From Saprospiraceae bacterium (GTDB lineage: Bacteria > Bacteroidota > Bacteroidia > Chitinophagales > Saprospiraceae), in assembly GCA_027080725.1 (NCBI GenBank), contig JALWRC010000015.1:1-64000 (forward strand): 64,000 nt of DNA, in the 5' to 3' direction. The notes beneath the pieces were generated by a model. That model was not told the origin of the DNA and ran no database searches. It saw only the letters and a list, made by a program, of their open reading frames with translations. Of the stretch, positions 49,046 to 59,375 are shown one piece after another. The position numbers and the translations under genes are program-made. Position 1 is the stretch's first letter; the number at the start of each line of letters is the position of its first letter.

Positions 49046-51439
49046 ATGCTTTATCGAAAAATTCTATTACTATTCTTTATTAGCCTAAGCTTTTTTACTA
49101 CTCATACTAAAGCACAGGTTGAGGATTCTTGTTTCTTAGAGCAATTCCTTGTTATTCCCCATTGTATTGACAGCCTCAACGGAGTAAAAACTCAATTCTT
49201 TGAGATTATTTATCAAGCTTCAGATTATTTAGACTCACTGGAGCTTGTTTTTGAGCGTCCCGGTGGCCGGGAAGTTGTTTCCTTTGCCAATTCCGGAAGA
49301 CCGTTTTGGTTTAACCCAAAGAAGAATGAGTGCGACCCCAAAGATTCCATCTACAGCTTTATCCTTCGCGATAAGAATAACCCTATGTGCAACTTGTTTT
49401 ATGATTGGAAGGTCATTTGCTGTGAAGAGGCGGAGTGCCCGATAGACAAATCTCAGGGTTCTTTAACGACAGAAGTAGAATGCACCCGATTGGAAGGAGT
49501 CTATAATTTATTCGTTGATTTCAAGCATGATAAAACCCTTCCAAATAAGTATTTCTCATTAACGGTTAGAAGCAGTGGACCTAATAACGTGTATCTTCAG
49601 AAATACTATAAATATAGTGATTTACCCTTAAAAATAGAAGGTCTTTATGCCAATTGCCAAGGCGAATACGACGTGACTGTTTCAGATCCATTGATTGGCC
49701 AAAGAGAGTGTGCCTTGACCGAATTATTCTTTCCAGCCAAATGTTGCAGCGACTCTTCCTACTGTGATTGGTCTAACCTCGAAGTCGAAAAACTGCCTTG
49801 TTATCCTACTGAGAAAAAGTATAGCGTCCGAATCAATTTCAAACACAAAGGAGTTGACAAAATTGGATCTTTCTTTGTAACCACTAAAAGCTATCGTGCC
49901 GGTCCTTTTAAATACAGTCAATTGCCGCTAACTGTAAGTGGACTAACAGCCGATTGTAAGACTAAGGAGTTTATTCAAGTGTCAGACTCTCGATACCCTC
50001 GAAATTGTCAATTAACAGAGAAATTAGGTATAGAATGCTGTGGGGACTCAACAGATTGTAAATTGTGGGATTTAGAAGTCATTAAGAGCCCATGTGATTC
50101 AGGTGGTTTTTTCAGTGCCACGATCAATTTCAGGCACATAAACACCGGTACTTTTTTTAAAATCGTTGGAAATGGGCGCGATTATGGGACTTTTCATTAC
50201 TCTAATCTACCGGTACACCTTCGCCTCAAAGGGGATTGTCAAACCCCATACGAATTTGTTATACTCGACCGTGGGGAAGACGAATGTACAGTGGCGGAGG
50301 ATCTCGGTGTAGTTTGCTGTGGTGGCCATGAAGATTGCAACATTCGCGATATGTACGTCCGTAAATCGGAGTGTGACGATGATGGCTTCTTTTTTGCTTA
50401 TATCGGATTCCAACACTCCAATACGAGCAAGCGGTTTCATATCCTTGGAAATGGAAAAAATTATGGAACATTCGAATACTCTCAACTTCCCGTTAAACTG
50501 CGGTTGAAGGGGGATTGTCAAACGCCCTATGAGTTTATCGTACAGGATGAAGTCAATATGAATTGTGGAGCGAATACCGGGTTGGGAAAAGTGTGTTGTG
50601 AAGACGACCACAATTCGGAAGACTGCAGTATTTGTGATCTTTCAGTGGACACCTTCCCGTGCCATAGTGATGGAACCTTTGCTATTTTGATTAGAGCAAA
50701 CCATATGGGAGGAAATGGAGCCTTTTTTGTTCAACTAAACGGTCAGCTCCACGGGCCATTCAAATACAGCCAATTGCCGGTAAAAATCGAGGGGCTCCAC
50801 GGTGATTGCCACACAAAGTATAAAGTAGTGATGTATGATAGAAGGCAAGAACATTGCGGCGCTGTTTACAACTTCGGTCCGATTTGTTGCAAAGGAGACC
50901 CCTGTCCTTTGAATCGGGATAGTATTTTCGGACGAGCGATAGAGTGCAATCCGGATCATAAAACCGTCCGCATTTTCATTAAGACCCCACTGCCGAATAC
51001 TGCTTTTGATGTTTTTGACAGAGACAGTTTCGTTGGCTTCTTCCACTCGGACAAATACGGCGAAATATCTATCGGTCATTATCCAATCAGTGGAAAAGAC
51101 TATGAATATGCGAGGATTTGCCTCAATGACATCCAACCTCCGTGTTGCAAAGAAATCGAGTTTAAGGCCATAAAATGTATGAATGCCGTGATAGACGTAA
51201 ACCAACTGGTAGATAATATTCATTACAGCTGGGTAGATGAATCCGTGGTGATTAAACAATCCGAAACCTCCGATTTAAGGATACAAATTCTCAATCTGGA
51301 CGGGAAAATATTACTTAACAAAGAGACAAAAGAGCAAATTGTAAAACTTAATATCCGGTCTGCTCCCCCAGGATTGTATCTCGTGAAAGTCACCAACGGG
51401 CTAAAGAATGCAACTTACCGTTTCATTAAATCCAGATAG
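49046..51439 (+). CDS. Secreted Cys-rich tandem-repeat protein with type A T9SS sorting domain
   Basis: 797 residues. A signal peptide (FFISLSFFTTHTKAQ) is followed by about six or seven repeats of roughly 95 residues. Each starts with a Cys-Cys pair (CCEEAEC, CCSDSSYC, CCGDSTDC, CCGGHEDC, CCEDDHN, CCKGDPC) and holds a strand pattern such as KYSQLPVKIEGLHGDC with further cysteines. Repeats 4 and 5 are the most alike at DNA level. The last 80 residues are a sorting domain (IQILNLDGKILLNKETKE, SAPPGLYLVKVTNGLK). I do not recognise the repeat family. It is probably a disulfide-stabilised surface adhesin or fibre. It has its own terminator. Confidence 0.8.
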   Translation: MLYRKILLLFFISLSFFTTHTKAQVEDSCFLEQFLVIPHCIDSLNGVKTQFFEIIYQASDYLDSLELVFERPGGREVVSFANSGRPFWFNPKKNECDPKDSIYSFILRDKNNPMCNLFYDWKVICCEEAECPIDKSQGSLTTEVECTRLEGVYNLFVDFKHDKTLPNKYFSLTVRSSGPNNVYLQKYYKYSDLPLKIEGLYANCQGEYDVTVSDPLIGQRECALTELFFPAKCCSDSSYCDWSNLEVEKLPCYPTEKKYSVRINFKHKGVDKIGSFFVTTKSYRAGPFKYSQLPLTVSGLTADCKTKEFIQVSDSRYPRNCQLTEKLGIECCGDSTDCKLWDLEVIKSPCDSGGFFSATINFRHINTGTFFKIVGNGRDYGTFHYSNLPVHLRLKGDCQTPYEFVILDRGEDECTVAEDLGVVCCGGHEDCNIRDMYVRKSECDDDGFFFAYIGFQHSNTSKRFHILGNGKNYGTFEYSQLPVKLRLKGDCQTPYEFIVQDEVNMNCGANTGLGKVCCEDDHNSEDCSICDLSVDTFPCHSDGTFAILIRANHMGGNGAFFVQLNGQLHGPFKYSQLPVKIEGLHGDCHTKYKVVMYDRRQEHCGAVYNFGPICCKGDPCPLNRDSIFGRAIECNPDHKTVRIFIKTPLPNTAFDVFDRDSFVGFFHSDKYGEISIGHYPISGKDYEYARICLNDIQPPCCKEIEFKAIKCMNAVIDVNQLVDNIHYSWVDESVVIKQSETSDLRIQILNLDGKILLNKETKEQIVKLNIRSAPPGLYLVKVTNGLKNATYRFIKSR

Positions 51440-51468: not shown

Positions 51469-51505
51469 GCCCGTTTGCATTTCGATTGCAAACGGGCATT
51501 TTTAA
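51469..51505 (+). terminator. Rho-independent terminator after the Cys-rich repeat gene
   Basis: GCCCGTTTGCA (51469-51479) and TGCAAACGGGC (51487-51497) form an 11-bp stem, 7-nt loop, followed by ATTTTTAATTG. It begins 30 nt after the stop. Confidence 0.85.
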
Positions 51506-51730: not shown

Positions 51731-53230
51731 TTAGAAATGATACCGGTATCCCAGTCTCAATACATGCAAATTGTATTGTTGTCGAATCGGGTTGTAGGTA
51801 GTGTTGCCGATATTATTAAGTAAAAATTGTTCGGAGAGAGAGAATAACATTTCGTGATGTTGATCCCATTGGTATCCCATACAAAAGGTGCTAGTCACCC
51901 AAAGGTTGCCCTTGGTTTTATAAAGTGGACGCAAGTCACTTCGCGTATCAAAGGCCGTCACTTTACCATTAGGTGTAGTCTGATAACCCCGGCTACGTTG
52001 CCAGATGTCGTATTTTGTACCGGCATTAAAGGAAAAGTTCCATTGATTTGAAGACCAACGATAGCCGGCTTGTAGCGAAAGGCCGACCATTTCATGCGAA
52101 TTAAAAGTGTGATAGGACGAATCATACAACACCTTTCTGTCCTCATACGAAATACTCTTGGTATTGTCTTTCAAGTATTTGACAATAGTGTCTCGAAGGA
52201 TTTCATCGGTATAACCGGTGTAGGTATAATTCAGCTCTTCATTAATAGCGGTAAAATCCAATCCCAGGGCAAATTTCCAGTGTTTGCCCGGCAAAATGTC
52301 TATAGCCAAACGCCCCTGCAAGGACTCAAGTGTATTCTCCGTAGCATCTCTCAAAGTTTTATAATCGTCATTGGGTGTTGACGACGTGAGCTGACGTTGA
52401 ATAAACCCGTACCCTGCTTGTGCTGACAATGCATAACCCAGATGTGCATGTGGGGTGAGCCCGGGTTGGTGCTTTTGATCCGCATCGTCATCCTCTGCAT
52501 AAATCATCTGCATGAGGATAAAGGAGAGAATCGTATGTTTCCATTCATTGCCTAACTCAAGATATGAAGATAAAGAGGGCAATCCCGGAATAATAGGCCC
52601 CATACGGTTCATGCTCATTGAAGATGTCTGTTTTTGATTGGAGGAATTATTGTCTTTGCTTTGAACATTAGGTGTTTGTTGAGCTTTTTCTTGTGCCCAA
52701 GTGAATGGATAGAGAGAAGTATATGATTTGTTAGGCTTTAAAGTCTGTTTTGTCTGAGTACTATTGCTTTGTCGGGCGTTAAGATTTTTGTTTGTAATCG
52801 TCCCGGTTTTGACATTTGAATGGAGAGAGGTAACAGGGGTTTCGGCCATTTTGCCTTGAGAGCGGTTGTTTTGTTTTGAAATGGTGGAGGAAGATGAATT
52901 GGGAGAGATATTGGTGGTCTTTTTTCCCTTTGAATCCACAAGAGAGGAAATTTGATGGAGGGTAGCATTATCCTTAGATGAAACATTGGACGCTATGAAG
53001 GATGTAGTGGGGTGGTGGGTAGAAGGACCGTTGGAAGAATACGTAAAATAGCCACCGACCGACAAGAAGATGACGGCCAATGCACCAGTCCACCATAACC
53101 ACCAGGTCCTTTTCTTTTTCTTGCCATAAAGTTTTTGTTCGACGCCGGCCCAAATATCCGGACCATCAACAGGCATCTCATAGCTGAGCATGGCCTCTTT
53201 TATTCTATTTTCAAAAATGTCTCTTTTCAT
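51731..53230 (-). CDS. Trans-envelope anti-sigma-like protein with C-terminal beta-barrel (Dma-like)
   Basis: 499 residues in one frame. Residues 1-40 are a short cytoplasmic helical domain (DIFENRIKEAMLSYEMPVDGPDIWAGVEQKL) like many Bacteroidota anti-sigma domains, followed by a basic KKKKR stretch. A single membrane helix spans about 42-63. Residues about 65-215 are Ser/Thr/Asn/Gln-rich and likely disordered. Residues about 225-499 have alternating outer-membrane barrel strands and end RLGYRYHF, an aromatic C-terminus typical of barrels. This would link the inner membrane to the outer membrane in one chain, the plan described for dual membrane-spanning anti-sigma factors (Dma) in Bacteroides. 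It starts 11 bp after the ECF sigma gene. Confidence 0.75.
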   Translation of the reverse strand: MKRDIFENRIKEAMLSYEMPVDGPDIWAGVEQKLYGKKKKRTWWLWWTGALAVIFLSVGGYFTYSSNGPSTHHPTTSFIASNVSSKDNATLHQISSLVDSKGKKTTNISPNSSSSTISKQNNRSQGKMAETPVTSLHSNVKTGTITNKNLNARQSNSTQTKQTLKPNKSYTSLYPFTWAQEKAQQTPNVQSKDNNSSNQKQTSSMSMNRMGPIIPGLPSLSSYLELGNEWKHTILSFILMQMIYAEDDDADQKHQPGLTPHAHLGYALSAQAGYGFIQRQLTSSTPNDDYKTLRDATENTLESLQGRLAIDILPGKHWKFALGLDFTAINEELNYTYTGYTDEILRDTIVKYLKDNTKSISYEDRKVLYDSSYHTFNSHEMVGLSLQAGYRWSSNQWNFSFNAGTKYDIWQRSRGYQTTPNGKVTAFDTRSDLRPLYKTKGNLWVTSTFCMGYQWDQHHEMLFSLSEQFLLNNIGNTTYNPIRQQYNLHVLRLGYRYHF

Positions 53231-53241
53231 AATCTCAAGTT

Positions 53242-53799
53242 TTAACCGGGTAAGTAGGATGTTTGTAGTTTGTTACTTTTTTTTATCATTTCTTTCAGTT
53301 TTTCTTTAGCTCGATGATAAGCAGAGCGAACCGTACCCTCTTTGATCTCCAGCTGTTGAGCGATTTCCTTATGACTATACCCATCGATGGCATACAAGCA
53401 AAAAACTTGTTTATAAGGGTACCCCAACATCATGACCAATTGGAAGATGTCAGAGTGTTCTAAATCACCAAAGGCTTCAGGAGCCTTAGGAGTTGTAATC
53501 TCGTTGTAGTCATCTGTCAACAGTTCTTTTTTGCGTCCCATTCTTCTGAGGACTTGCAGTGACTGATTGACCGCTATTTTTCGCATCCAAGCTTTAAAAT
53601 TATCCGTATCGGGGTCTATCTTATGGATATTCTTAAAAATAGAAACAAAGACATCTTGCAAGACATCTTTGACTTCTTCTCCATCTCTTAGGTAGCTTCG
53701 ACAAACGGGATATAAAAAAGGGGCAAAGCGCAGTACTAAATCTTCCTGCGCTTTGCGATCCTCCTTCTGACATAATCTTATGAGCGAAGCTACATTCAT
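53242..53799 (-). CDS. ECF-type RNA polymerase sigma factor
   Basis: 185 residues from the ATG at 53799 (MNVASLIRLCQKEDRKAQEDL); an earlier in-frame ATG at 53841 would overlap the upstream gene. Region 2 reads LRFAPFLYPVCRSYLRDGEEVKDVLQDVFVSIFKNIHKI, and region 4 YPYKQVFCLYAIDGYSHKEIAQQLEIKEGTVRSAYHRAKEKL carries the helix-turn-helix. It sits between a lipoprotein gene (10-bp gap) and the anti-sigma-like gene (11-bp gap), so all three form one operon. It probably directs transcription of its own operon and other envelope genes. Confidence 0.92.
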   Translation of the reverse strand: MNVASLIRLCQKEDRKAQEDLVLRFAPFLYPVCRSYLRDGEEVKDVLQDVFVSIFKNIHKIDPDTDNFKAWMRKIAVNQSLQVLRRMGRKKELLTDDYNEITTPKAPEAFGDLEHSDIFQLVMMLGYPYKQVFCLYAIDGYSHKEIAQQLEIKEGTVRSAYHRAKEKLKEMIKKSNKLQTSYLPG

Positions 53800-53809
53800 T
53801 GTTGAGAGA

Positions 53810-55594
53810 TTATGGCAGCGGAAGTTTAAAAAAAACATCAACTCGGGTATCTCTTAAGGGCCGGTTATTGTAGTCATAGACTCTTATCAGCCCTTGGCTT
53901 ATTACTCCTGTGACAGAGTGCGTCTCTTTTTGTATAATCCTAAGTACAGCACTATCCTTAACAGCCCTTCCTGTCTCATTTTTCTTTTCAAATTCTACTG
54001 TATAATTGTATTTCACTGTGTCAACCGGATAGTCACCTATCCCTTTCAATTCGAGCACTTGCACCGTAAGGATAATGCTGCTATCAAGGGATAATGCACT
54101 CCAATCCAAATTATCATTGCCTGTCCCCCAAGAAGTATACACACCATCCAAGACGTGCCACTCTCCGTCAACTCTTACTGCCATGAAGCTATCTCTCCTG
54201 GCATCGCAAACCGGAAGGGGCCCGAGGGAAACATCTGTATAGGGAAGGAGGTAATTAATGCCGGATACTTCTTTTCCTGAAGGATCATATCCGACAATTT
54301 CAACATACTTCTCATTAGTACACAGATAACCTCCAATGCTGAAGATTCCCTGCTCATCCGTGATAGCAGTAATCGGAAATCGTGAATTATTCAATCTTAC
54401 TGTACCATCAGCTATCGGGCTCCAATCGCAATCGTACAAAGTGCCTACAATAGAAAACGGAGTATTTCCGGGTTTATTCACTAAATAAAGATCTCCCATT
54501 TCGGCCTTTCGGCCAGCCTGAAAAGGGCCGATAGCTTTTTCCTCCACAATCTGGTCACAGTCGTTATAAACCTTTAATACAAACGCGTGTTCTGCCTGCA
54601 AATAACTCGTAAATTCACCTTTTTCGTTGGTAAGGTCTTCTGCTAAAACCCCATCATAAGCCACCCTATCTCTATCGACTATCGTTACTTTTAAGTAATC
54701 TGCCGGAGTTCCTGAAGCATTGAGTAATCGCATAGAAAATTGTACCGGGCTTTTTTTATCTTGAACAGACCAATATCCGGTCTTAGTGATAGGCGCTTCA
54801 TAGGAATCTCCGGAAGAAGAAAGGGTCGCTTCTCCCTTTTCTACCCATTTAGCCAGAGATACATCAAAATACCATAGCGGAATAGTTGCGGGGGCTGAAG
54901 AGGCCAAGGCTTTGGGCAGGGGTATCCGTGCTTTAACACTGGCGTTTGAGGCAAAGTCTAAGACCTCGCCATTTTGCCTCTCCAGCTCCACCGCAATCAT
55001 TCCGTAAGGAAATAGTGATTTTAAAACATACTCCTTGTCCTCTCCGAGAAATATCCCCGGAAATGAGGTATTTGTATTGCTTAGTTCCGGATTAATCCAA
55101 CGAATGAATACGGACACTTCTTCTTCCACGGGATTTTGCCCGGAATCGACGATAGCTTTAGAAGGAATCTCCAACTGCACCCCATCTGCCAATACACGCC
55201 CACCGTTGCTTGCCAAAACGCTCCCTTGGTTATGAGCTTTCTTTCCAATCGTCTCTATCAATATGGCAGAAGTAACGTTCAGATCCGGGCGAACCACCCG
55301 CATGCTATTAAAATATCCCCTTGATTTTACCTGTACTGTGGCTCCTTCCTTATCGATCAATACATCTTTGATTAAAAAGTATCCCTTATCATCTGTAATG
55401 GTCTTCCGGTCGCCTACAAAGACTTCGACCTTTTTCCTTCCCAATCCATCTTCATCTGTAACTACGCCAAATATTGATGCGTTGACCAAAACTTTGGTAT
55501 GTGCCGGACGTTGCTTCTTAGGTGTGGGCTTTATATTATCCTTGCGACATTGGACAAATAAAACTAAGCTCAATATGATCACAAACCACTTCAT
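53810..55594 (-). CDS. Lipoprotein with carboxypeptidase-regulatory-like domains
   Basis: 594 residues. The signal ends LVLFVQCRK (lipobox Cys16). The first domain is a carboxypeptidase regulatory-like beta-sandwich (ASIFGVVTDEDGLGRKKVEVFVGDRKTITDDKGYFLI pattern, about 38-85). Further repeats of the same plan occur near 375 (VGTLYDCDWSPIADGTVRLNNS) and at the end (YDYNNRPLRDTRVDVF). In between are ASPIC/ZU5-like strands (VLADGVQLEIPSKAIVDSG). It faces the periplasm or cell surface and could be the sensor or regulated product of the sigma system behind it. Its leader holds the block shared with the MobA-like gene. Confidence 0.8.
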   Translation of the reverse strand: MKWFVIILSLVLFVQCRKDNIKPTPKKQRPAHTKVLVNASIFGVVTDEDGLGRKKVEVFVGDRKTITDDKGYFLIKDVLIDKEGATVQVKSRGYFNSMRVVRPDLNVTSAILIETIGKKAHNQGSVLASNGGRVLADGVQLEIPSKAIVDSGQNPVEEEVSVFIRWINPELSNTNTSFPGIFLGEDKEYVLKSLFPYGMIAVELERQNGEVLDFASNASVKARIPLPKALASSAPATIPLWYFDVSLAKWVEKGEATLSSSGDSYEAPITKTGYWSVQDKKSPVQFSMRLLNASGTPADYLKVTIVDRDRVAYDGVLAEDLTNEKGEFTSYLQAEHAFVLKVYNDCDQIVEEKAIGPFQAGRKAEMGDLYLVNKPGNTPFSIVGTLYDCDWSPIADGTVRLNNSRFPITAITDEQGIFSIGGYLCTNEKYVEIVGYDPSGKEVSGINYLLPYTDVSLGPLPVCDARRDSFMAVRVDGEWHVLDGVYTSWGTGNDNLDWSALSLDSSIILTVQVLELKGIGDYPVDTVKYNYTVEFEKKNETGRAVKDSAVLRIIQKETHSVTGVISQGLIRVYDYNNRPLRDTRVDVFFKLPLP

Positions 55595-55652: not shown

Positions 55653-55968
55653 ATGTCGGTCTCCTATTTAAAAATTCTTTTCAGCAGGTAGGCGGTCAAA
55701 CATTTCATACATCTTACCTCCGTTTGATCTTATAATGCAACGTAATTGGAAAACGTTGCAAGGTAGTAGATTTTTTTTAAATTTTTAATCTGCTCCTGAT
55801 GCTTAATATATAAAAGATGAAGTAAGCAGTGCTTAAATATGAATGGGCAGAATACACATCATTCCGTTCTGTAATACACAATGTTTTGACTTGTTGAATG
55901 ATAGGTCAACTTCTTAGTAACACCAAGTACTAAATAACTGAAAATGATTCTATAACAGATGTTTTTAG

Positions 55969-56024: not shown

Positions 56025-59000
56025 ATGAAACCTTCTGCTACAAACTTATCACTTTTACTCATTACATGCATGATTAATTTTTCGCTTCTAATGTCTTGTT
56101 CAGATTCTTCCCATTCCAATCAGGCAGTAAAAGTCACAACATCATCTGTGAAAGCTGAACCAATATTTGAAAAACTGCCACCAAGACAAACCGGAGTAAC
56201 CTTTGTCAATAAGTGTATAGAAACACCAACGTTCAATTATTTGTATTGGTCCTCAATGTATATGGGAGGAGGAATAGGCATTGCCGACTTTAATAATGAC
56301 GGTCTTTTAGATTTCTTTGCTACCGGCAACATCATGCCTTGTAAATTATATATCAATAAGGGAAACATGACATTTGAAGATGTTACCTCTCAATCCGGTA
56401 TTAAGCCGGATGGCAAATGGTCTTTTGGTGTTGCCATTGGTGATGTAAATGGGGATGGTCTTCCGGATATTTACATTTCGAAAAATGGCCATAAACCTAT
56501 ACCTGAACTAAGAAAGAATATTTTATATCTAAATCTTGGCGGACTGAAGTTCAAGGATATAACAGAAGAATCCGGCTTGGGAGATATGGGATTTAGTACC
56601 CAATCCACCTTTTTTGATTACGACAATGATGGAGACCTAGATTTGTATGTTGGCAATCAACCACCGGACAAACGACTGATCGGAAAACCCGAATTCGCAA
56701 ATCAGAAGGGCCCGGATTATACTTCTGACCACCTTTACAAAAATGATGGAACAGGACATTTTATCGATGTTACCAAGGAAGCCGGATTGCAAAATTGGGC
56801 CTACACCTTAAATATTTTGGCCACAGATATCAATGAAGATGGCCGGACTGACCTATACATCACTAACGACTACGCCGAACCGGACTACATCTACATCAAC
56901 AACGGTAACGGAACATTTACCGAATCGCTTGATAAATATGTCAAACACATCTGCAACTTTGCAATGGGCAGCGATGTGGGAGATATCAACAACGATGGGT
57001 TTCAGGACATCGGAGCATTGGACATGTCTGCTTCTGATCACTATCGCTCCAAAACCAATATGAGAGCCATGAATACGGAAGCCTTTTGGAAAAATGTCGA
57101 AAAGGGCAACTATTATCAATATATGACCAATACGCTCCAACTCAATACCGGAGTGGGGAAATTTCAAGAAATTGCTCATTATGCCCATATGGCTTATACG
57201 GATTGGAGTTGGTCATTGTTAATGGCTGACTTTGACAATGATGGGTGGAAGGATATTTTTATCACCAATGGGGTCTATCGGGATGTCCGAAACAACGACT
57301 TCGATAGTTTTGGGAGATTTCTTAATAGCAAAGGGCATCATAGCTTTGATCCATTAAAGCTTCTTAAACAGATTCCACAAACCCCACTTCCCAACCGCTT
57401 TTACCACAACCAACACAACTATGAATTTAAAGAAAAAGCAAAGGATGTAGGATTAGGACAACCTGGGTTTTCCCAGGGAGCAGCCTATGCGGATTTTGAT
57501 AATGATGGAGATTTGGATTTGATTGTCAATAATCTTGGGGACACTTTATCTGTATATAAAAATAATACTCCCAACACAAATCACTATCTCAATATCCGCC
57601 TAAAGGGAAAAGGTAAAAATAAGTTTGCCCTAGGAACACATATCAAAGCCTATTTTAATGATCAGGTTCAAATACGAGAGCATATATTAACCCGAGGTTA
57701 TTTATCCAGCTCTAGCCCGATTGTCCATTTTGGCCTTGGAAAAGCAACCGCTATTGACAAGTTGGATATCATTTGGCCGGACAATACCGTTACTACCCTC
57801 CACCATGTAAAAGGGGACCAAATGCTCGTCATAGACCAATCCAAGGAAAAAACCTCCCCCTACCAAAAAGCCCCTCTACCCACCCCATTAATGGTCGAAA
57901 AGACAGCCCGGTCAGGCATTGACTTCGTTCACAAGGAGAATGCATTTAATGATTTTGCGAGAGAAGTCTTGCTTCCGCAGAAAGAATCTCAAAATGGGCC
58001 AAAAATGGCCAAAGGAGATGTCAATGAGGATGGACTGGAAGACGTATTTATCGGAGGGGCGATTGGCCAAAGCGGAAGACTTTATCTCCAGGGAAGTAAT
58101 GGACAATTTCATGCCGGACCCTCACAGCCTTGGTCTTCAGATAAGAGCTACGAGGATATAGGTGCAGTGTTTTTTGATGCGGACGGGGATAAGGACCTGG
58201 ATCTGTATGTGGTGAGCGGAGGTAGCGAATTTGACCCCGGAGACCGGCATTACCAGGATCGGCTCTACATCAATAAAGGCAATGGCAACTTCACTAAAGC
58301 AAAAGCGGGAACGCTTCCGAAAATAGATCAAAGCGGTTCTGTCGTGTTAGCAAATGACATGGATGCCGATGGGGATTTGGACCTCTTTGTCGGAGGCCGC
58401 ATCATACCGGGAAAATATCCTTATCCCCCAAAGAGTTATTACCTCCAGAATAACGGTGGAAAGTTTGTCGACAAAACCGAAGAACTCGCCCCTGATTTCA
58501 TCCGGTTGGGCCTTGTAACCGATGCCGTTTTTGTGGATATCAATGGAGACCATACCGATGACCTTGTCGCTCTGGGAGAGTGGATGCCCATCACCGTATT
58601 GATCAATAACCATGGGAAATTTGCCGACAAGACAGCGGATTACGGTTGGCAAAATTCGAGAAGCTGGTGGTGGAGCCTCGCTACAGATGATATCAACCGA
58701 GATGGACGGCCGGACTTTGTGTTTGGCTGTATGGGGAAGAATCACAAGTTCAACAAAGCCTCTAAGGAGAAACCATTTGAAGTATTTGGAGAAGACTTTG
58801 ATGGAGACGGGGTCAATGATGTCGTTCTGGCCAAGCATTACAAAGATAAACTGGTACCTACGCGAGGGAAAGACTGCTCTTCTGAGGAGATGCCGTTTAT
58901 TAAGGACAAATTTCCCACCTATGACGCCTTTGCCAAAGCGAGTATCTACAATATTCTACCGGAAGACAAGATAAAGAAAGCCCTTCACTACAAAATTACG

Positions 59001-59375
59001 GATTTTCATAGCAAGTTGGCTTTGAGTACACCTGAGGGGGGGTATGAAATGGTGGACCTTCCGCCGGAATGCCAATTTGCTCCGATAAGAAGCCTCCGGT
59101 TTGTCAATATAGATGAGGATCCGGAGTTGGAACTTATCGGCTGCGGAAACTTATATCCCGCCGAAGTGGAAACAGTACGTCATGATGCGGGAATCGGGTT
59201 TGTACTGGATATCAAAAACAAAGGGCAGGAACTCCATTGGTTGCCTCCATCAAAAACCGGACTTATGGCAGATAAAGATGCACGTTCCTTGCGCATTCTC
59301 AATGACCGGTGGATCGTAATCTCCAACAATAACGATGGCGTACAAGTGTATGAGATAAACCGAAAAGAAATCTGA
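56025..59375 (+). CDS. FG-GAP/VCBS-repeat lipoprotein with ASPIC/UnbV domain
   Basis: 1116 residues. The lipobox lies in SLLMSCSDSS. Calcium-binding FG-GAP/VCBS-type repeats of an integrin-like propeller recur (GIADFNNDGLLDFFATGN, AIGDVNGDGLPDIYISKNG, FFDYDNDGDLDLYVGNQ, ATDINEDGRTDLYITND, AYADFDNDGDLDLIVNN). An ASPIC/UnbV domain follows near residues 525-605 (YLSSSSPIVHFGLGKATAID). A second propeller (VFFDADGDKDLDLYVVSGG, LANDMDADGDLDLFVGG) completes it. Such large CRTAC1-like lipoproteins are common and multicopy in Saprospiria and related groups; their job is unknown, probably at the surface. It is transcribed alone. Confidence 0.9.
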   Translation: MKPSATNLSLLLITCMINFSLLMSCSDSSHSNQAVKVTTSSVKAEPIFEKLPPRQTGVTFVNKCIETPTFNYLYWSSMYMGGGIGIADFNNDGLLDFFATGNIMPCKLYINKGNMTFEDVTSQSGIKPDGKWSFGVAIGDVNGDGLPDIYISKNGHKPIPELRKNILYLNLGGLKFKDITEESGLGDMGFSTQSTFFDYDNDGDLDLYVGNQPPDKRLIGKPEFANQKGPDYTSDHLYKNDGTGHFIDVTKEAGLQNWAYTLNILATDINEDGRTDLYITNDYAEPDYIYINNGNGTFTESLDKYVKHICNFAMGSDVGDINNDGFQDIGALDMSASDHYRSKTNMRAMNTEAFWKNVEKGNYYQYMTNTLQLNTGVGKFQEIAHYAHMAYTDWSWSLLMADFDNDGWKDIFITNGVYRDVRNNDFDSFGRFLNSKGHHSFDPLKLLKQIPQTPLPNRFYHNQHNYEFKEKAKDVGLGQPGFSQGAAYADFDNDGDLDLIVNNLGDTLSVYKNNTPNTNHYLNIRLKGKGKNKFALGTHIKAYFNDQVQIREHILTRGYLSSSSPIVHFGLGKATAIDKLDIIWPDNTVTTLHHVKGDQMLVIDQSKEKTSPYQKAPLPTPLMVEKTARSGIDFVHKENAFNDFAREVLLPQKESQNGPKMAKGDVNEDGLEDVFIGGAIGQSGRLYLQGSNGQFHAGPSQPWSSDKSYEDIGAVFFDADGDKDLDLYVVSGGSEFDPGDRHYQDRLYINKGNGNFTKAKAGTLPKIDQSGSVVLANDMDADGDLDLFVGGRIIPGKYPYPPKSYYLQNNGGKFVDKTEELAPDFIRLGLVTDAVFVDINGDHTDDLVALGEWMPITVLINNHGKFADKTADYGWQNSRSWWWSLATDDINRDGRPDFVFGCMGKNHKFNKASKEKPFEVFGEDFDGDGVNDVVLAKHYKDKLVPTRGKDCSSEEMPFIKDKFPTYDAFAKASIYNILPEDKIKKALHYKITDFHSKLALSTPEGGYEMVDLPPECQFAPIRSLRFVNIDEDPELELIGCGNLYPAEVETVRHDAGIGFVLDIKNKGQELHWLPPSKTGLMADKDARSLRILNDRWIVISNNNDGVQVYEINRKEI
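59041..59053 (-). repeat. ACCATTTCATACC 13-mer, copy i (inside FG-GAP gene)
   Basis: Exact copy, reading GGTATGAAATGGT on the plus strand; the gene reads it as TAT GAA ATG (YEM), yet another frame. Confidence 0.9.

Follow-up and report, generated by a model that had tools for sequence, protein, structure and literature searches.

Anti-sigma factors that reach across the whole cell envelope have been described in Bacteroides thetaiotaomicron, where Dma1 and Dma2, with Das1 and Das2, are dual-membrane anti-sigma factors (PMC13088901, citing Pardue 2024), and in the EcfO-Reo systems of Bacteroides fragilis and Phocaeicola vulgatus (PMC9308784, PMC13114119). Here we describe a related locus from a Saprospiraceae bacterium, located in a 64-kb window (the whole stretch of DNA analysed, contig JALWRC010000015.1): an operon encoding a lipoprotein, an extracytoplasmic function (ECF) sigma factor and a Dma-like protein of 499 residues. 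We find moderately probable that it is an autoregulated envelope-signalling operon, in which the lipoprotein would mainly be an output driven by the sigma factor.

The locus shares with Dma1 and Dma2 an anti-sigma domain, one membrane helix, a long disordered tether, a C-terminal barrel and an adjoining ECF sigma factor gene, within an operon that holds extra genes. The extra genes of the Dma2 operon, BT_1557-1555 (BT_1557 with DUF4943, BT_1556 with DUF4858), are described as downstream, whereas a CarboxypepD_reg lipoprotein gene lies upstream here. The B. thetaiotaomicron systems have also been given roles in vesicles and polysaccharide loci. With EcfO-Reo, the locus has in common an envelope-spanning anti-sigma factor with an outer-membrane barrel, encoded downstream of the sigma factor. 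This type of anti-sigma factor is already known from Reo and Dma, and the likeness to Dma1-3 is one of architecture and description. The architectural features found here support the proposal of the initial annotation that a Dma-like system exists outside the Bacteroidales.

Lipoproteins are tied to these systems as well. In B. thetaiotaomicron, the vesicle phenotype of dma1 depends on NigD1, and deletion of dma2 strongly induces its own operon (PMC13088901). In Phocaeicola, production of NigD surface lipoproteins depends on EcfO and occurs only once EcfO has been freed from Reo; one nigD gene (M0N98_03762) is numbered next to ecfO (M0N98_03761) (PMC13114119). NigD is described as a family of its own, and this description sets it apart from the Saprospiraceae lipoprotein. 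What envelope-spanning anti-sigma factors sense, and what their associated lipoproteins do, are questions still under study (PMC13088901, PMC13114119). Because the lipoprotein-sigma-Dma operon is conserved, shares a promoter-like element and occurs in many environmental Bacteroidota, it lends itself to a simple genetic test of input versus output and hints at a common logic for NigD and the lipoproteins described here. An incomplete literature search, which may have missed an earlier description, returned no account of this operon, of the element or of recurrent unlike lipoproteins; the conserved lipoprotein partner, and the way in which dissimilar lipoproteins turn up next to such switches in other Bacteroidota, appear to be undescribed.

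Two further systems are relevant for comparison. FecI-FecR pairs an ECF sigma factor with a membrane anti-sigma factor and takes its signal from the outer membrane; its anti-sigma factor does not extend beyond the periplasm, and a distinct TonB-dependent protein serves as the transducer, whereas in our locus the predicted barrel lies in the same chain as the anti-sigma domain, which rules out a FecR-type system. E. coli RcsF-OmpA joins a lipoprotein to an 8-stranded barrel at the outer membrane; it signals to a phosphorelay and not to a sigma factor, and the comparison implies no sequence relation.

Architecture of the operon products

The three genes lie on the minus strand in the order lipoprotein, sigma factor, Dma-like protein (Table 1), separated by 10 and 11 bp, in agreement with the initial annotation. 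The open reading frame (ORF) listing starts the sigma gene at an upstream TTG (53841); we chose the ATG, which yields the 10-bp gap. The sigma gene product matched Pfam Sigma70 r2 (5e-15) and r4_2 (4e-14), and, against a set limited to general ECF models, it gave general ECF hits.

For the Dma-like protein, AlphaFold2 run on a 25-row alignment predicted an N-terminal pair of helices (residues 3-15 and 23-35), and the first 40 residues carry a conserved Asp/Trp motif followed by a KKKRR run. The proposed chain, composed of a small cytoplasmic domain, one helix, a disordered stretch and a barrel ending in Phe, was recovered in each part; the mostly disordered stretch is ~195 residues long, and the predicted local distance difference test score (pLDDT) is below 50 across most of residues 67-259. 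Structure prediction of the C-terminal domain gave a confident barrel, with eight strands within residues 264-498 and pLDDT mostly above 90. The best Foldseek match of the model was the 8-stranded transmembrane barrel of OmpA (E 8e-8, target template modelling (TM) score 0.68), Pfam OMP_b-brl matched 8 of 33 homologues, and many homologues share the aromatic C-terminal end of the barrel. Pfam and NCBIfam contained no family for the 499-residue protein, and a sequence search of the PDB gave no convincing relative. As modelled, its architecture is the one published for the Dma and Reo anti-sigma factors, and this long protein, anchored in both membranes, probably holds back the sigma factor. At two loci (L206, 11872-13392; L266, 1486-3174), the Dma-like proteins have an apparently duplicated N-terminal Asp/Trp module, the putative sigma-binding part.

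The lipoprotein comprises a CarboxypepD_reg domain (residues 40-98, Pfam 1e-9), a FAM171-like region (193-275) and a transthyretin-like (TTR-like) region (295-348); a FAM171 N-terminal domain match was present in 27 of 30 homologues. Its predicted fold is a series of beta domains, for which Foldseek returned pilin- and adhesin-like matches of low TM-score. No Pfam or NCBIfam family covers the whole protein, and the PDB sequence search gave no convincing relative, the lipoprotein profile retrieving a weak match to FAM171A2 (E 0.01). Cys16 is invariant across 30 homologues, and the residue before it is Gln in the window copy, which is atypical. The export signal of surface lipoproteins has been defined in Capnocytophaga as C-X-K-(D/E)2-X (PMC5080379). 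Among 63 homologues, Lys occupies +3 in 39 and Asp +4 in 41, while +5 is rarely acidic and +6 is acidic in 33. Three operon lipoproteins (L110, L112, L162) measure 1057-1283 residues, roughly double the normal size, which suggests that domains were inserted or duplicated.

Table 1. Coordinates of the operon and associated features in the 64-kb window
Feature	Position	Strand	Basis
Putative ECF promoter TGCAACGTTTTCCAATTACGTTGCATTATA, ~140-170 bp upstream of lipoprotein start	55731..55760	-	element conserved in Saprospiraceae
Lipoprotein gene, 594 aa	53810..55594	-	gene call, Pfam, homologue alignment, predicted all-beta multidomain fold
Lipoprotein signal peptide, residues 1-16 (MKWFVIILSLVLFVQC)	55547..55594	-	Cys16 invariant
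ECF sigma factor gene, 185 aa, regions 2 and 4	53242..53799	-	ATG start 53799, stop 53242
Gene for Dma-like, predicted trans-envelope anti-sigma factor, 499 aa	51731..53230	-	gene call, alignment, AlphaFold2, Foldseek
Dma-like residues 1-40, two-helix cytoplasmic domain, putative sigma-binding	53111..53230	-	alignment, AlphaFold2, co-variation with sigma
Dma-like residues 43-66, predicted inner-membrane helix	53033..53104	-	AlphaFold2; hydropathy peak at 44
Dma-like residues 67-262, predicted mostly disordered periplasmic tether with short helix 230-243	52445..53032	-	AlphaFold2
Dma-like residues 263-499, predicted 8-stranded OmpA-like outer-membrane barrel, C-terminal Phe	51734..52444	-	AlphaFold2, Foldseek
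Terminator-like stem between operon and convergent gene 49046-51439	51469..51497	+	

Conservation of the operon and recurrence of lipoprotein partners

The genome was searched for sigma-like places at E <= 1e-6, giving 18 that resemble the window sigma factor, the window copy included. About 10 of them are followed by a Dma-like protein, judged by length, membrane helix and C-terminus, and the complete lipoprotein-sigma-Dma order recurs at two further loci, on contigs C39 (L009) and C68 (L008). The assembly may have split a fourth copy between the ends of contigs C8 and C80: on C8, the ORF of a lipoprotein of this family reaches almost to the contig end (L045, 4626-6080), and C80 starts with an ORF resembling a lipoprotein tail (L035, 24-473) directly before a sigma-Dma pair. 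The first residues of this ORF recur at the end of contig C82, so the junction is repetitive.

Across the family, the lipoprotein was present in 91 of 150 Saprospiraceae genomes. We sampled one locus from each of 60 genomes, beginning at the head of the hit list and continuing further down it; these loci contained 65 lipoprotein ORFs, 49 with a sigma gene directly next and 48 with a sigma gene and then a Dma-like gene. The three-gene order, for which a search in other Bacteroidota had been proposed as a check, occurs at two more loci of the genome and at ~48/60 sampled loci (~80%, in many genera), and the layout is beyond chance for this reason. The lipoprotein had been described as an added element; it is instead a conserved partner across the Saprospiraceae, and Dma loci elsewhere have lipoproteins of other kinds. 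Tandem pairs of lipoprotein genes occur at some loci, and at L203 a Dma-like gene comes directly after the lipoprotein gene, the ORF labels showing no sigma gene in between. The lipoprotein family extends to Chitinophagaceae and Flavobacteriaceae, in which many copies have no such neighbours. Beside several stand-alone copies of Chitinophagaceae-like genomes there is no second partner, as the downstream genes read as isocitrate/isopropylmalate dehydrogenase-like enzymes.

With a profile of the Dma-like protein, we detected relatives in 50 of the 172 Bacteroidota genera sampled. At 35 of 58 distinct sigma-Dma pairs a lipoprotein gene is adjacent (34 of 58 with the first version of our custom lipobox rule, by which lipoproteins were called). 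Lipoproteins account for 35/71 genes adjacent to the pairs and for 14/187 of the remaining genes in these loci (Fisher p 6e-13, an optimistic value, since the pairs are related to each other). These lipoproteins form several clusters with little or no mutual sequence similarity. Upstream of the pair lie the ~590-residue FAM171/CarboxypepD_reg type of the Saprospiraceae, a 136-168-residue type in a Flavobacteriaceae-like family and a 140-151-residue type; downstream lie an LVIVD-repeat type and a 320-347-residue type found in Chitinophagaceae-like and some Saprospiraceae genomes, the latter partly related to the ~590-residue type. The Saprospiraceae lipoprotein profile weakly matched two members of the 320-347-residue group and one of the LVIVD group. 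The literature adds NigD in the Bacteroidales. In the sigma factor tree, 47 of 49 sigma factors with the Saprospiraceae type fall in one clade of 57, and the 136-168-residue (13/13) and 140-151-residue (4/4) types likewise each group in a single clade; the two downstream types show no such grouping and are spread over the tree. We give somewhat better than even chances to the view that Dma-type switches across Bacteroidota are three-component systems to which each lineage attached its own, partly unrelated lipoprotein, a lipoprotein being a functional constant of the switch. Loci L258-L291 were inspected for a sigma-Dma fusion of the kind described for Dma3, and none was seen. In four loci of a Flavobacteriaceae-like family (L278, L281, L283, L284), the cassette lies just downstream of a gene reading like the C-terminus of recA.

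A promoter-like element and the role of the lipoprotein

Upstream regions of the lipoprotein operons share a YGCARC motif with a TATA- or TTTA-like box ~20 bp further downstream; the window carries a sole exact match to this element, the one listed in Table 1. The element was noticed by visual inspection, and its counts come from those very regions, with shuffles and the reverse strand as controls. YGCARC precedes 46 of 71 operon lipoprotein genes (shuffles: mean 6.9, maximum 11; reverse strand: 7) and 21 of 71 stand-alone lipoprotein genes (shuffles: 6.5, maximum 12), which are only a partly independent test set; some stand-alone copies, e.g., at L114 and L116, also have a -10-like box. The genome has seven other sigma genes, each ahead of a Dma-like gene, whose 300-bp upstream regions lack the element. 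One of these seven genes (L035) may follow a truncated lipoprotein gene.

Co-variation was evaluated by comparing distances between the components. The first 40 residues of the Dma-like protein co-vary clearly with the sigma factor when the barrel is controlled for (partial r 0.26, reached in 0/500 permutations), consistent with the proposed fit of this segment to the sigma factor. Between lipoprotein and barrel, with the sigma factor controlled for, the partial correlation is 0.10, and 32/500 permutations were as high.

These data suggest the following mechanism. The Dma-like protein would span from the cytoplasm to the cell surface, with its inner-membrane helix, a disordered tether crossing the periplasm and an OmpA-like barrel in the outer membrane, and its residues 1-40 would retain the ECF sigma factor. 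An outer-membrane event, such as damage, failed barrel assembly or a ligand, would lead to release of the sigma factor. From the YGCARC element ahead of the lipoprotein gene, the sigma factor would then transcribe the operon that encodes it and, in certain species, drive extra stand-alone lipoprotein copies as well. The lipoprotein, multidomain, adhesin-like and probably located at the outer membrane, would mainly be the output of the switch, with a protective or surface-remodelling effect, and may also feed back on the barrel.

The initial annotation had assigned the lipoprotein the opposite role, that of reporting the surface state to the barrel. As a sensor or ligand it would contact the barrel at the outer membrane, and its loss or conformational change would release the sigma factor, comparable to RcsF-OmpA. 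Strict operon linkage, the gathering of the sigma genes of lipoprotein operons in one clade, the OmpA-like nature of the barrel and the recurrence of lipoprotein partners in other lineages all agree with this role, which we nevertheless consider unlikely: co-variation of lipoprotein and barrel is near zero given the sigma factor, stand-alone copies carry the same upstream element, many sigma-Dma pairs have no such lipoprotein and the NigD analogue is an output. It is because of the co-variation results and the NigD analogue that we favour an output over a sensor. That the lipoprotein is simply a separate surface protein on a shared transcript, functionally unrelated to the sigma-Dma pair, is very improbable and largely refuted already by conservation; the stand-alone occurrence of the family in Chitinophagaceae and Flavobacteriaceae would fit, while the adjacency across many Saprospiraceae genera, the triplicate within one genome and the occupation of this position by different lipoprotein families elsewhere in the phylum speak against it. 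A further possibility, which we rate as less likely than not, specifies the signal and can be combined with either an output or a sensor: upon failure of the β-barrel assembly machinery (BAM) or the outer membrane, the barrel would not be inserted, Dma would be degraded and the sigma factor freed, the lipoprotein being one stress gene. The aromatic barrel end in many homologues points this way, and antibacterial toxins that perturb the outer membrane, one of them targeting BamA, induce EcfO-Reo (PMC9308784, PMC13114119); on the other hand, the Dma2 authors favour an unknown glycan as the signal, and ~10 sigma-Dma pairs in the genome are more than one generic assembly sensor needs.

Several results weigh against an autoregulated operon with the lipoprotein as its output. 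The exact element occurs at 4 sites genome-wide, equal to the count of the reversed control, and no regulon beyond the operon was resolved by it; the operon copy on contig C39 has a degenerate element only; and the enrichment upstream of stand-alone genes is modest and concentrated in Saprospiraceae. That the element is a promoter read by the cognate sigma factor is an inference from sequence. Mirror-tree statistics are weak, and a direct contact between lipoprotein and barrel is compatible with the results. Finally, the window lipoprotein reads CRKDNIK (+2 to +6, RKDNI), and its surface exposure is uncertain because these residues match the export signal only in part.

Divergent to the operon, the window also encodes a 1116-residue protein (56025-59375) with FG-GAP-like repeats and a lipobox-like N-terminus (CSDSS).

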